A stretch of 64,000 bases of DNA from Verrucomicrobiia bacterium (lineage in GTDB: Bacteria; Verrucomicrobiota; Verrucomicrobiia; Limisphaerales; DASXHY01). Both the position numbers and the translations under genes were made by a program. Position 1 is the stretch's first letter; every line of letters begins with the position of its first letter. This document shows positions 20,087 through 25,706 of the stretch, one piece after another. Below the pieces are notes generated by a model. The model saw only the letters and a list, made by a program, of their open reading frames with translations. It ran no database searches and was not told the DNA's origin. Where the stretch lies: NCBI GenBank assembly GCA_035629175.1, contig DASPIL010000103.1, positions 1-64,000 of the forward strand. Direction: 5' to 3'.

Positions 20087-22873
20087 ATGTGCTCTCAGGC
20101 AGTCGTCTCCCGCTCGTCTGGTGTTTCGCCGTTGCTGCGAGGCTGCCTCGTTTGGGTGGCTCGATTTCTGGTCCTCTTCTGCTGTGTTCCATGTGTGGTT
20201 CAAGGCGTTGTTCTTTGGAGTGACGCGGGTGGAACCTTGGTTCACGACGCAGGCCGCGGGCGCGATATTCTTGAAAACGCCGTGAAGCGCGACGATCTCT
20301 CGAACGACACGCTCTACTTTAAGTTTCATGTCGATCCGCTCTCGGACTCCACGACAGAGGAGTATTTCGCGGCGTTCGCGCTTTTTGACGGCGACGCCGA
20401 GCGGGTCGGCATCGGCAATGCCCTGAAAGCCTGGGCCTACAGCGCCTACCTCAATGAAGGCGAGGCTGGCCCGGGCTCCGTGGGCGGGTACATCGACCTG
20501 CACTCCGCGCGCGCGGAACCTGCTCCCGGCGGGGTTCCGTCGCGATACGAACTACCGCGGCGCGGCAGCCAAAAAACCATCGTGTTCAAGGTGCAATTTG
20601 TCGCGGGAGGCGATGACTTGATTACGGTGTGGCTGGACCCGGACCTGGGGCCAGGAGCCAATGAGATTTACCAGCAGGAAGCGCTCATCACCCGTTTCAG
20701 TGGAAATGCCGCCTTTGATGAGATCCGGCTGCGGCACGGTGGCGGCGGAACAGGCTGGCGTTTCAGCGAGATGGCGATCGCGACAAAGTTCAGCGATTTC
20801 GTCGATGCCAGCAGCGCCAAGCCGGACGGCGGAAATGGAACGGGCCTGGACGCAACGCCGGTTCATTTTCGGTCGTGGCAGCGTGAACACGGGATTCCTC
20901 ATGGCTCAATTCGCGCGTTGGCCCAGACCCGCGATGGCTACATCTGGATTGGCAGCGATGAAGGTCTCGTGCGTTTCGATGGGGTCCGCTTTTCTCCCGT
21001 TCATCCCCGTGACAGCGGATCCGCAATCGCCGTGGCAGCGCTCTTCGGCGATAGCAAGGGCGCGCTTTGGGTGGGCTCCTCGGTTGCGGGCGCGATGAGG
21101 TTTGAGCAGGGTCAATGGATCACACTGTCCGCACGCGAGGGATTGCCGTCGGATTCAATCACATCGTTCGTTGAGAGCAACGACTCAATCGTGATCGGCA
21201 CTGAAACCGGATTGGCAGTGTGGGACGGCGAGCGGGTTGCGATCCCGGCGGAGTTCAATCGATTCAAGGGATCTCACGTAACGGCGCTGTTCAAGGACCG
21301 ATCGGGCACGCTCTGGGTGGGCATCCGGGGAACAGGAGTTTTCAAGGTGTTCGAAAGCAGGGTTGATCAGGTCGCTGGAGATTCTGTTGCGCCGCTGCTT
21401 CGGCAACCGAACTGCCTTCTCCACGATCAAAGCGGGCGCCTTTGGGTCGGGGCTGGAGAGGATTCCGTGCTTTGCCTGGAAAGCGGCCAGTGGCGGCGGT
21501 ACAGAATTCCGCGCCATTCTGCAAACACGTCTGTGATGTCGCTCGCCGAGCAGCCCGATGGGACAATCTGGGCCGGGTCAGTGACGGAAGGTTTGTTTCA
21601 GTTCAAGGGAGGGAAGCTGACTTCGATCGGAGCCCGCGGCGGACTTTCGGATAACCTGGTGGGCGCGCTCCTGGTTGATCGCGAAGGAAAGCTCTGGGTG
21701 GGAACGGACGCGGCCCTGAACCGGATTCATCACAAGAACATAAAGGTCTACAGCCAGGACGAGGGGCTTGGTCTCGGCGCTGTGCAAGGTCTTGCCGAAG
21801 TTTCGCCCGGTGTCATATGGGCTGTTCGGGAGTCAGACGGACTCTATCGATGGGAAGGCGGAACCTTCAACCGCCTCAAGGTTGCTGGCCTTCCGGCGAG
21901 GGATTTCCATCTCGGCCCATTGCTCGCCGCGCGGAACGGTGTTTGTTGGCTCGCTTGCCGCGAAGGATTGTTGCAGGTGAAGGATCCCCAGGCCGTGGCC
22001 GATGAAACGCGACTCTGGAAAACTCCCAGACTGGAAATCACTGCCCTTGCGGAAGATCACGAAGGAAACATTTGGGCTGGGATGCGCGAAGGAACAGTGT
22101 GGAGACTGAGTGCGGGAAAGTGGGGCGAGTTGGTCGAGCTAAGCCAGGCCAGTCCCATCACCTCAATCGTGGTGCAGACAAACGGGGAGACATGGATCGG
22201 AACCGATGGCGCAGGATTGGTGAAAGTGCGGTCGGGAATCAAAACGCACTACGGGAGGCGCAACGGGCTTGGCAGCGATTCCATTCGGGTTCTGCTTGCG
22301 GCCAATGGCGCAGTGTGGATTGGAACCACGGGAGGTGGACTCAGTTGCTGGAGGGACGGGAAGATCTTCACGGTGACCGCTGCGCAGGGCCTGCCCGACA
22401 ATACCATCGTGCAAATTGTTGACGATGCGTTTGGGCGGGTTTGGATCGGCAGCATGCACGGAATTGCGTGCATGACGAAGGAGGACGTCGAACAGGCGGC
22501 CGCTGCACCGAATGCGCGAATATACCCGCACGTGTTTGGCCGCTCCGCAGGCTTGATTTCCGAGGAGTGCACGACGGGATTCTCCCCCGCGGGATTGAAG
22601 ACACGATCAGGATCGTTGTGGTTTGCCACCACCAGGGGCGTTGTCGCGATTGATGCGCGGCATCCGCCGATCGAACTTCCTATGCCGCAAGCCGTCCTTG
22701 AAGAGGTGCTCGTGGATGGCGTGCCGGTCAGAGATTTGCTGCCCCCCAAAAGAGCGGGCGGCGGAACAAACGATTCGCAAAATGCTTCCATCCGAATTGA
22801 TCCCGGCCGGCATCGTTTGGAGGGTTCAATACACGGCATTAAGCTTCGACCAGGCGGACCAATTGCGCTTTAG
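20087..22873 (+). CDS. Propeller sensor portion of a frameshifted two-component kinase
   Basis: This 928-residue frame holds the extracellular input half of a sensor kinase. After a hydrophobic N-terminus it has a domain of about 230 residues, then repeated Reg_prop blades (TRDGYIWIGSDEGLVRFDGV, KGALWVGSSVAG, REGKLWVGTDAALNRI, FGRVWIGSMHGIA) from about 265 to 800. A Y_Y_Y domain begins near 860, where the frame breaks: after GRHRLEG the normal continuation is in the next frame. Such sensors usually detect oligosaccharides outside the cell, which fits the flanking glycoside hydrolases. The kinase half follows at 22824. Confidence 0.8.
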   Translation: MCSQAVVSRSSGVSPLLRGCLVWVARFLVLFCCVPCVVQGVVLWSDAGGTLVHDAGRGRDILENAVKRDDLSNDTLYFKFHVDPLSDSTTEEYFAAFALFDGDAERVGIGNALKAWAYSAYLNEGEAGPGSVGGYIDLHSARAEPAPGGVPSRYELPRRGSQKTIVFKVQFVAGGDDLITVWLDPDLGPGANEIYQQEALITRFSGNAAFDEIRLRHGGGGTGWRFSEMAIATKFSDFVDASSAKPDGGNGTGLDATPVHFRSWQREHGIPHGSIRALAQTRDGYIWIGSDEGLVRFDGVRFSPVHPRDSGSAIAVAALFGDSKGALWVGSSVAGAMRFEQGQWITLSAREGLPSDSITSFVESNDSIVIGTETGLAVWDGERVAIPAEFNRFKGSHVTALFKDRSGTLWVGIRGTGVFKVFESRVDQVAGDSVAPLLRQPNCLLHDQSGRLWVGAGEDSVLCLESGQWRRYRIPRHSANTSVMSLAEQPDGTIWAGSVTEGLFQFKGGKLTSIGARGGLSDNLVGALLVDREGKLWVGTDAALNRIHHKNIKVYSQDEGLGLGAVQGLAEVSPGVIWAVRESDGLYRWEGGTFNRLKVAGLPARDFHLGPLLAARNGVCWLACREGLLQVKDPQAVADETRLWKTPRLEITALAEDHEGNIWAGMREGTVWRLSAGKWGELVELSQASPITSIVVQTNGETWIGTDGAGLVKVRSGIKTHYGRRNGLGSDSIRVLLAANGAVWIGTTGGGLSCWRDGKIFTVTAAQGLPDNTIVQIVDDAFGRVWIGSMHGIACMTKEDVEQAAAAPNARIYPHVFGRSAGLISEECTTGFSPAGLKTRSGSLWFATTRGVVAIDARHPPIELPMPQAVLEEVLVDGVPVRDLLPPKRAGGGTNDSQNASIRIDPGRHRLEGSIHGIKLRPGGPIAL

Positions 22874-23828
22874 GTATCGGCTGGAAGGATTGGATTCCGG
22901 CTGGGTGGAGGCGGGGGCAAGAAGGACCGCGTTCTACAATTATGTTCCACCCGGCGAATACCGGTTCCATGTGATTGCCTGCAACAGCAGCGGCGTCTGG
23001 AGCGAATCGGGTGCAACCCTGGACGTCGTGGTCTCCCACTACTTCTGGCAATCGTGGTGGGTGCTTGCGGCGGGAGCGTCGGGGATTCTTATGGTGGTTG
23101 CGGGAGGTGTCCGGATGGTCGAGAAACGAAAGCTGCGCCAGCGGATGAAACGCCTCGAGCAGGAACGGGCGCTCGAGCGGGAGCGAACTCGCATTGCGCA
23201 GGATCTTCACGATGAAATGGGCGCGAAGCTCTGTCGTATCTCGTTTCTCAGCGAACACGCCCGCAGGAACGACAGCGCACCCGACGAGCTGCATCGCCAG
23301 ATCGTTTCGATCTCGGAAGCCTCGCGCGAAGTCTTGCAGTCGCTCGATGAAATCGTTTGGGCGGTGAATCCGAAGAACGACACACTGGAGCACGTTGCGT
23401 CGTATATCGGGCAGTATGCGCAGGAGTATTTTCAGATGACGGGCCTCGAGTGCGAAGCCGACGTCTCGACACAGGTGCCGCCCGAGCCAATGTCGTCCCA
23501 GGCCCGGCATCACTTGTTTCTCGCGGTCCACGAGGCGTTTACGAACGTGCTCAAGCACGCACGGGCGAGCCGTTGCTGCCTCGTCATCAATTGTGACGGC
23601 AACGTTTTTGAAATTATCGTGTCGGACAACGGCGCTGGCATCAGCGAATTCCTCCTTTGTGAAAGCCCAAACGATTCGCCATCTGCGGCGGGCGAGGGTC
23701 TGAGGAACATGCGGCGCAGGATGACGGCCATTGGCGGCACGTGTGAGATAACCTCCACCCCAGGATCGGGGACGAACGTTCGCTTTACGTTCCCTGTTCA
23801 CTCAAGATTCAACGCGATCAGCCCATGA
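22824..23828 (+). CDS. Kinase portion of the same sensor (Y_Y_Y, TM, HisKA_3, HATPase)
   Basis: This frame continues the Y_Y_Y domain (VQYTALSF, RFRYRLEGLDSGWVEAG, PPGEYRFHVIACN), then a membrane span (WWVLAAGASGILMVVAGGV), a coiled segment, the HisKA_3 dimerisation domain with its phosphoacceptor in RIAQDLHDEMGAKL, and an ATPase with VHEAFTNVLKHA, DNGAGI and GEGLRNMRRR. Removing one G from the run at 22822-22824 joins it to the upstream frame. There is no start codon near the junction. ATG at 23091 could give a short protein with the kinase core only. It overlaps the regulator gene by 4 bp. Confidence 0.8.
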   Translation, partial: VQYTALSFDQADQLRFRYRLEGLDSGWVEAGARRTAFYNYVPPGEYRFHVIACNSSGVWSESGATLDVVVSHYFWQSWWVLAAGASGILMVVAGGVRMVEKRKLRQRMKRLEQERALERERTRIAQDLHDEMGAKLCRISFLSEHARRNDSAPDELHRQIVSISEASREVLQSLDEIVWAVNPKNDTLEHVASYIGQYAQEYFQMTGLECEADVSTQVPPEPMSSQARHHLFLAVHEAFTNVLKHARASRCCLVINCDGNVFEIIVSDNGAGISEFLLCESPNDSPSAAGEGLRNMRRRMTAIGGTCEITSTPGSGTNVRFTFPVHSRFNAISP

Positions 23829-24451
23829 TCTCGGTTTCCATCATTGATGACGAGAAGGAGCTGCGCGAGTCGATCACCACGTTTGTGAACGGGTCCGCGG
23901 GTTTCAAATGCGTGAGCGCGTATGGCAGCGCCGAAGCCGGCTTGCAGCAATTGCCGGAGGATAAACCTGATGTTGTACTGATGGACATCAACATGGCCGG
24001 CATGGATGGAATTGAATGCGTTGGAAGGTTGAAGAAAATCATGCCGGCTGTGCAGGTCGTGATGCTCACGGTCTATGAGGATACGGATAAGATTTATCGC
24101 GCACTTGCTGCGGGCGCGACGGGTTATCTCCTGAAACGTTCGAGTCCGGGCGCATTGCTGCAGGCGATCCAGGAAGTCCGAGAGGGGGGATCGCCGATGT
24201 CGAGCTCGATTGCCCGCAAGGTGGTGGCTTCATTTCAAAAGGCTAATACCGCTGCGGATGAGAAGCAGGTTCACCTTTCGCCAAGGGAGGAAGGCGTGTT
24301 GGAACTGCTTGCGAAAGGGCTGACCTACAAGCAAATCGCCGGCCAGTTGAACATCAGCATCGACACCATACGGACGCATCTTCGGCGGGTTTATGAGAAG
24401 CTGCACGTCCAGTCGCGGACGGAGGCCGTGGCGAAATATTTGAGGCGGTGA
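23825..24451 (+). CDS. NarL/FixJ-family response regulator
   Basis: The 208-residue protein has a receiver domain at about 1-120 with the acidic pair in SIIDDEKE, the phosphoacceptor Asp in VVLMDINMAGMDG, and TVYE and GYLLKR. A LuxR-type HTH follows at about 145-205 (LSPREEGVLELLAKGLTYKQ, DTIRTHLRRVYEKL). Its ATG overlaps the kinase stop codon (ATGA), so the pair is translationally coupled. It should be the output of the propeller sensor and may control the surrounding glycan genes. A MITE is inserted 15 bp after its stop, including the duplicated target. Confidence 0.93.
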   Translation: MISVSIIDDEKELRESITTFVNGSAGFKCVSAYGSAEAGLQQLPEDKPDVVLMDINMAGMDGIECVGRLKKIMPAVQVVMLTVYEDTDKIYRALAAGATGYLLKRSSPGALLQAIQEVREGGSPMSSSIARKVVASFQKANTAADEKQVHLSPREEGVLELLAKGLTYKQIAGQLNISIDTIRTHLRRVYEKLHVQSRTEAVAKYLRR

Positions 24452-24466
24452 ACATGCTGGAACAAC

Positions 24467-24698
24467 CGGGCTTATATATTTAGCAAACGCTTGGACCGCG
24501 GATGTCCGAGGGTGCTGCATAGGCTCGGTGGCATGGAAACCTCAAAGAATAAGGCTGAAGCCTGCGTACTGGCGGATTCATTTCACCGGGGTGCTCGTCT
24601 GTATTCACCCACCCGCCTGAAAGGGTTTGGCCAGTTGATCGAAAACAAACGGCTCACCTACCGCCAGGTTTCCTGCGTTTGCTAAATATATAAGCCCG
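24467..24698. mobile_element. 232-bp MITE with 24-bp terminal inverted repeats and 9-bp target duplication
   Basis: The left end (24467-24490) begins CGGGCTTATATATTTAGCAA and the right end (24675-24698) is its perfect 24-bp inverse. Both ends are flanked by the same 9 bp, TGGAACAAC (24458-24466 and 24699-24707). This is the signature of transposition. The interior of about 184 bp holds no transposase; a short frame inside (24491-24685) has no recognisable domain. It would need a transposase in trans, perhaps from an IS making 9-bp duplications. I saw no second copy in the window. Confidence 0.9.
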
Positions 24699-24708
24699 TG
24701 GAACAACT

Positions 24709-24727
24709 GTCGCCACTTCATGCGACT
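24709..24727. repeat. 19-bp palindromic element, copy 2
   Basis: GTCGCCACTTCATGCGACT, identical to copy 1, lies 1 bp beyond the right target duplication of the MITE and 74 bp before the prepilin-like gene. Confidence 0.75.
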
Positions 24728-24800
24728 ACCGGGGGCCGCGGGTGAAATGTAGTGTCGCGCATCGTAACCTGTTGCCTGCGTTTCCTGTGAAGGACGAACG

Positions 24801-25706
24801 ATGAATCTGAAACAAGAACCTTCCCGCCCCAAGCCTTTCGGGTTCACTTTGATTGAACTGCTGGTGGTGATCGCCATCATCGCAATTCTTGCCGCAATGC
24901 TGCTTCCGGCCTTGAGCAAGGCGAAGGACAAGGCGCTTGGGACTGCCTGCCTCAACAACACGCGGCAGATGGTGCTGGGAGTGACCATGTATGCCGGGGA
25001 CAATCGTGATTATTTTCCATCGCCGCCGAATTGGTGGACGCCAGGTCCGTACAAGAACGCACAAGGACTGATGTGCGGCGGTGAATGGCTCCTGCGGGAC
25101 CAGGTGACTCCCAATACTCCAGCGCCGATGGTCGGGCCGTTTGTTCCAAACAACAAAACGTGGATTTGCCCCAAGCGAAAACGAGGCCTGACGTACACAA
25201 CGGCTGCCGGCGATTGGGACCCGAGCATCACCGGTTTTCTGTCATACGGCTTTAATTGCATTGGTGTCTTTGGTGCAGTGCAGGCGGATGGAAACATGAT
25301 CAACGCCAAGCCGTTTCGCGCATCGAGCGCCGCGCGTCCGTCGGAAATGGTGGTGATCTCTGACACGAGCGGTTCAAACAATCCGAACAATACACCCGCT
25401 GCGGCATGGCTGGATTCCTGGTGGGCAGGTTCCTCGGGACCTTCGCTTCCAGTGACGGGCAATGAAAACGCACGCCTTCAGACGGCATATGCCAAGCACA
25501 ATGCAAAGGTCAACGTGGTGTATGTGGATGGCCATTGCGCTCCATCGAAACCAAGCCAGCTCACATGGGGGCAATTCTGGGGCGTCTTCACTCCAGGCGT
25601 GGTTCTCAAGACGTCGCCTTCGGCACAGATTTCAAGTGTCATGTCTGACGCGTTCATCAGTTCGCCGGCTTACGACAGCCAGCAGTGGACATCGGTTCCG
25701 CCCTGA
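24801..25706 (+). CDS. Prepilin-like secreted protein with H-x9-DG motif
   Basis: The 301-residue protein starts with a short basic leader and the type IV prepilin/pseudopilin signal ([18 protein letters not shown], then [11 protein letters not shown]). A prepilin peptidase would cut after the first Gly and methylate Phe. The C-terminal half has [13 protein letters not shown], the H-x9-DG motif of DUF1559-like proteins common in Verrucomicrobiota and Planctomycetes. Two Cys-containing stretches ([16 protein letters not shown]) are seen. Function of this abundant family is unknown; it may be surface-displayed through a type II secretion-like route. A second member lies at 30854-31660. Confidence 0.88.

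Follow-up and report, generated by a model that had tools for sequence, protein, structure and literature searches.

A single-copy 232-bp element in a Verrucomicrobiia genome, very probably derived by internal deletion from an IS1595-family insertion sequence of the same genome

We found that a 232-bp stretch in a genome of a Verrucomicrobiia bacterium is almost certainly an internal-deletion derivative of an insertion sequence (IS) of the IS1595 family that resides in the same genome. It lies in a 64,000-nucleotide stretch of contig DASPIL010000103.1 (assembly GCA_035629175.1), here called the window. This conclusion follows from arms (119 and 89 bp) that match those of sibling copies, from exact junctions, from an intact sibling IS, and from a shared type of target duplication. 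The survival of IS ends after loss of the enzyme gene is a familiar type of event in bacteria, and the 232-bp element is real, well explained, and ordinary, one more instance of a class already described. The parent survives beside its derivative, and their arms are identical, so that the pair captures cleanly how a nonautonomous element originates; the deletion junction, with its 25-bp inverted filler from the deleted gene, can be resolved to the single base. The element documents one route to MITE-like elements in bacteria and overturns nothing.

The first-pass annotation had described a 232-bp element with perfect 24-bp ends and a 9-bp target duplication, and its coordinates are exact (Table 1). 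The arms are 100% complementary with 184 nt between them, and TGGAACAAC abuts both outer ends. The inverted repeat stops exactly at 24 bp, where the left arm continues with TTGG and the right arm, read inward, with AGGA. As expected, the 24-bp end stem was present in the folded DNA strand of the element.

Table 1. Features of the 232-bp element and the other insertions in the same genome
Feature	Position	Strand	Target duplication	Basis
Left copy of target duplication, 9 bp	24458..24466	n/a	TGGAACAAC	sequence, flank pairing
232-bp stretch, almost certainly an internal-deletion derivative of the 1,027-bp IS1595-family IS	24467..24698	+		genome search, alignment
Left terminal inverted repeat, 24 bp	24467..24490	+		repeat search
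Left arm (IS 1-119)	24467..24585	+		genome search, alignment
In-frame transposase remnant, 50 codons	24533..24685	+		ORF 24491-24685 compared with P0001
Filler, 25 bp (reverse complement of IS 681-705)	24585..24609	-		alignment to parent
Right arm (IS 939-1027, 100% identical)	24610..24698	+		genome search, alignment
Right terminal inverted repeat, 24 bp	24675..24698	-		repeat search
Right copy of target duplication, 9 bp	24699..24707	n/a	TGGAACAAC	sequence, flank pairing
Insertion C95/C83			GACACACAT	
Insertion C55/C36-end			ACAGGTGA	
Insertion C36-start/C92			GCACGGCGT	
Insertion C52/C58 (terminal C to T at left tip)			GGCTGGGGC	
Insertion C101/C3			AGCTTCGCT	

A search of the bacterium's own genome (5.41 Mb in 108 contigs, about 96% complete) with the 232 bp as the query returned one full match, the window itself. 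The left arm (query 1-119 or 2-119) was matched at five other places and the right arm (query 144-232) at six, mostly contig ends. Contig-end halves were paired through their flanks or target duplications, which gave five insertions besides the one in the window. A scripted check found the same duplication on both sides at all six sites, with a length of 9 bp at five of them, including the window, and 8 bp at the sixth. The 24-bp tips of the element are those of the full-length copies, with the terminal change at C52 as the exception. Chance is ruled out as the origin of these tips, since they are found again at five other insertions, each with its own 8- or 9-bp duplication. From each end, the contigs of these insertions match the full-length IS for about 140 bp, past the arm lengths kept in the 232-bp form, and therefore they are not further short copies; C101 is the sole full-length sibling that is read through, and what lies inside the other four is deduced from these terminal stretches of roughly 140 bp. 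The left arm differs from the C101 copy at a single position (position 96) and from the remaining copies at none. That the arms match other copies letter for letter and that the duplication is intact indicate a recent insertion, as had been claimed.

It had also been proposed that the 24-bp ends be used to look for further copies and for an autonomous IS that carries them, and the genome holds both. The autonomous IS, on contig C101, is complete at 1,027 bp, with identical 24-bp ends and a single ORF that, counted from its METS start, is intact and encodes a 315-residue transposase (P0001). This protein matches DDE_Tnp_IS1595 (PF12762; E = 3.5e-32, above the cutoff), carries a zinc ribbon at its N terminus (PF12760, Zn_ribbon_IS1595; E = 3.7e-11), and passes the NCBIfam IS1595 model NF033547 (E = 2.6e-54, above the cutoff). 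With both the catalytic domain and the zinc ribbon present, the parent belongs to the IS1595 family. P0001 matched one complete place in the genome; its other matches were contig-end fragments and the short remnant of the window. The parent resembles other members of the family, which have ISXO2-like transposases, in these two domains, in its single transposase gene, and in its length and GGG-type terminal repeats. It differs in that its duplications are mostly 9 bp, whereas those of the family are described in PMC8101967 as usually 8 bp. For the IS1016 group, duplications of 7 to 9 bp are given in PMC12561309, and PMC8101967 describes this group as being without the N-terminal zinc ribbon.

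Alignment to the parent showed that IS 120-938, nearly the whole transposase gene, is missing, with ends of 119 and 89 bp kept. The filler shares one base with the left arm, and its source is the stretch coding for VNTDEHPG, within the deleted catalytic domain. Such an inverted insert where the two sides of a deletion meet suggests template switching in replication or repair, and the filler is the sole mildly unusual detail of the element. On balance, 819 bp were lost and 24 bp gained, so that the reading frame was kept. The resulting remnant consists of 17 N-terminal transposase residues, 9 junction residues, and 24 C-terminal residues; residues 291-315 of P0001 were matched at 24608-24682, and the catalytic residues are absent. 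Thus, the claim that no transposase is encoded was correct with respect to any transposase domain, and just this in-frame remnant is left.

We considered how the 232-bp form arose. A full-length copy would have supplied the transposase that recognized the 24-bp ends and inserted them at target cuts staggered by 9 bp. The core would have dropped out in a single event of faulty replication or repair that involved template switching, whether here after insertion of the full-length IS or elsewhere before the short copy moved here. On either course both ends are intact, and the short copy should therefore still be mobilizable in trans by the sibling transposase. The first course is somewhat the likelier: a full-length IS would have been inserted at this site and lost its core later, so that the short form would never have moved and would be a scar and not a MITE. 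This reading is slightly favored because it is one step shorter than the alternative, in which a deletion elsewhere precedes transposition. The arms are the same as those of the siblings, and no match to the element was found in the other 145 of 146 genomes searched, own genome included, which were of the same order or more distant among those listed, with none of the same genus or family. That the form is single-copy fits deletion in place as well as it fits transposition of a MITE. However, a parent short copy may have been lost, or may be absent from an assembly that is about 96% complete.

Alternatively, the 232-bp form could have been born elsewhere and moved in trans by a sibling transposase, creating its own 9-bp duplication, and it would then be a true MITE. 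We hold this as a serious possibility short of a probable one. Both 24-bp ends and the subterminal regions are intact, the duplication length matches that of the siblings, a sibling transposase that is likely active is present, and bacterial MITEs mobilized in trans are described in PMC3189936. What speaks against a true MITE is that a second copy was absent from the own genome, from the other 145 genomes, from viral contigs searched for a 21-bp part of the terminal repeat, and from 125 loci compared, where the left filler junction occurred only in three loci, all of them overlapping parts of the window. The name MITE, which the first-pass annotation had used, is apt in part. The element is short and nonautonomous, has the terminal inverted repeats of an IS, encodes no transposase, is flanked by a target duplication, and has an autonomous partner, but it stands as one copy in its genome, and no repeated family of it was seen in the other 145 genomes searched.

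It is very unlikely that the short copy acts as a self-limiting regulator of the parent IS, with its 50-residue in-frame remnant, or its bare ends as decoys, lowering the activity of the full-length siblings. An assembly or library artifact, with a full-length copy collapsed and then spanned by a chimeric read, is scarcely credible. The genome is a draft in which the other IS copies sit at contig ends, cut off about 140 bp inside the IS, but the arms of 119 and 89 bp fall short of that ~140-bp overlap, so that the short copy assembles unambiguously. In addition, a chimera that accounts for both exact junctions and for the unique inverted filler within a 208-kb contig would have to be well covered.

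The literature searched held no report of the 232-bp element itself. A MITE of Haloquadratum walsbyi linked to the IS1595 family through the putative IS ISHwa6 is listed in PMC3852290 with 165 bp, 7 copies, inverted repeats of 25, and direct repeats of 8. As listed there, it is likewise miniature, assigned to an IS1595-family IS, and similar in size and repeat length; in contrast, the 232-bp element is single-copy, lives in a bacterial host, has a 9-bp duplication, and has arms that are exact copies of the parent's. MITEPsy1, as described in PMC3189936, is also short and nonautonomous, has terminal inverted repeats, and is thought to be mobilized in trans by its parental IS. However, MITEPsy1 is multicopy with transposition shown, whereas the 232-bp element is single-copy and only potentially mobile.

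Close relatives of the IS were found outside this genome. A transposase scan of named genomes gave 107 relatives, of which 80 were retained; the nearest, at 69 to 81% identity, were from Verrucomicrobia, largely "subdivision 3" bins, which fits a verrucomicrobial host. A terminal-repeat search of 64 loci gave credible ends only in close relatives (L029 and L031-L034), and its low-scoring rows were attributed to chance and left unused. The ends of close relatives are of the type YGGGCTTGTRTACTT...CAAACGC, and paired insertions with this end type had a 9-bp duplication in 4/5 cases and an 8-bp duplication in 1/5. Another insertion in a relative (L034/L112) is without a target duplication. Six relatives' genomes contained full-length and partial IS copies, many at contig ends, and no short derivative was noticed on a general look through the matches. 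A plasmid protein search returned 341 records, all below 60% identity, and thus no recent plasmid source was seen. One locus (L101, CAMDWI010000002.1), in a bin labeled Klebsiella pneumoniae, encodes an IS1595-family transposase with 53% identity over query residues 23-164; this bin is possibly mislabeled.

We also looked at target-site choice. Across 30 ends (12 own and 18 from relatives, those of L034/L112 included), GGnGA was weakly preferred at positions -16 to -12 outside each end. The strongest column was -13, with G at 18/30 ends (P = 0.0005 from 2,000 simulated columns, uncorrected over the 26 columns tested). A GGnGA(CA) preference, likewise weak, was visible about 10 to 16 bp outside both ends, and some own sites adjoin GTCCCCAGTnnTGGGGAC hairpins. 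REP-like palindromes of the RAYT (Y1 transposase) kind, GGGGACA...TGTCCCC, were considered as IS targets, and the weak preference is all that remains of this idea: no intact copy of the exact palindrome GGGGACA-N2..9-TGTCCCC was found in the own genome, and GTCCCCA-N1..8-TGGGGAC occurred in only three places, two of them adjoining IS copies. Y1_Tnp had five matches. Four of the six own insertions (window 24458, C95/C83, C36/C92, and C52/C58) come after a credible gene, 6 to 12 bp from its stop codon, and two of these four follow similar 208-residue response-regulator-like genes; a crude gene caller gives 3/6, having chosen an antisense ORF at C95/C83. The same crude caller placed none of 11 insertions in relatives, L034/L112 left out, within 20 bp of a stop codon, and therefore we claim no general stop-codon preference.

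The neighbors of the insertion in the window are a LuxR-type response-regulator gene (23825-24451; Response_reg, GerE), whose stop codon it follows at 6 bp, and, on the other side, a gene at 24801-25706 that bears a prepilin-type methylation motif. The suggestion that the ends could change nearby transcription found no support. A promoter scan of 24380-24860 gave one weak promoter-like site, on the minus strand and reading inward from the right flank (shuffle mean, 0.4), and no promoter reading outward from the element. Upstream, two overlapping plus-strand ORFs (20087-22873 and 22623-23828) resemble one two-component sensor with a frameshift near 22.86 kb, carrying Reg_prop repeats followed by Y_Y_Y, HisKA_3, and HATPase_c. 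This split sensor is either a pseudogene or a sequencing error.
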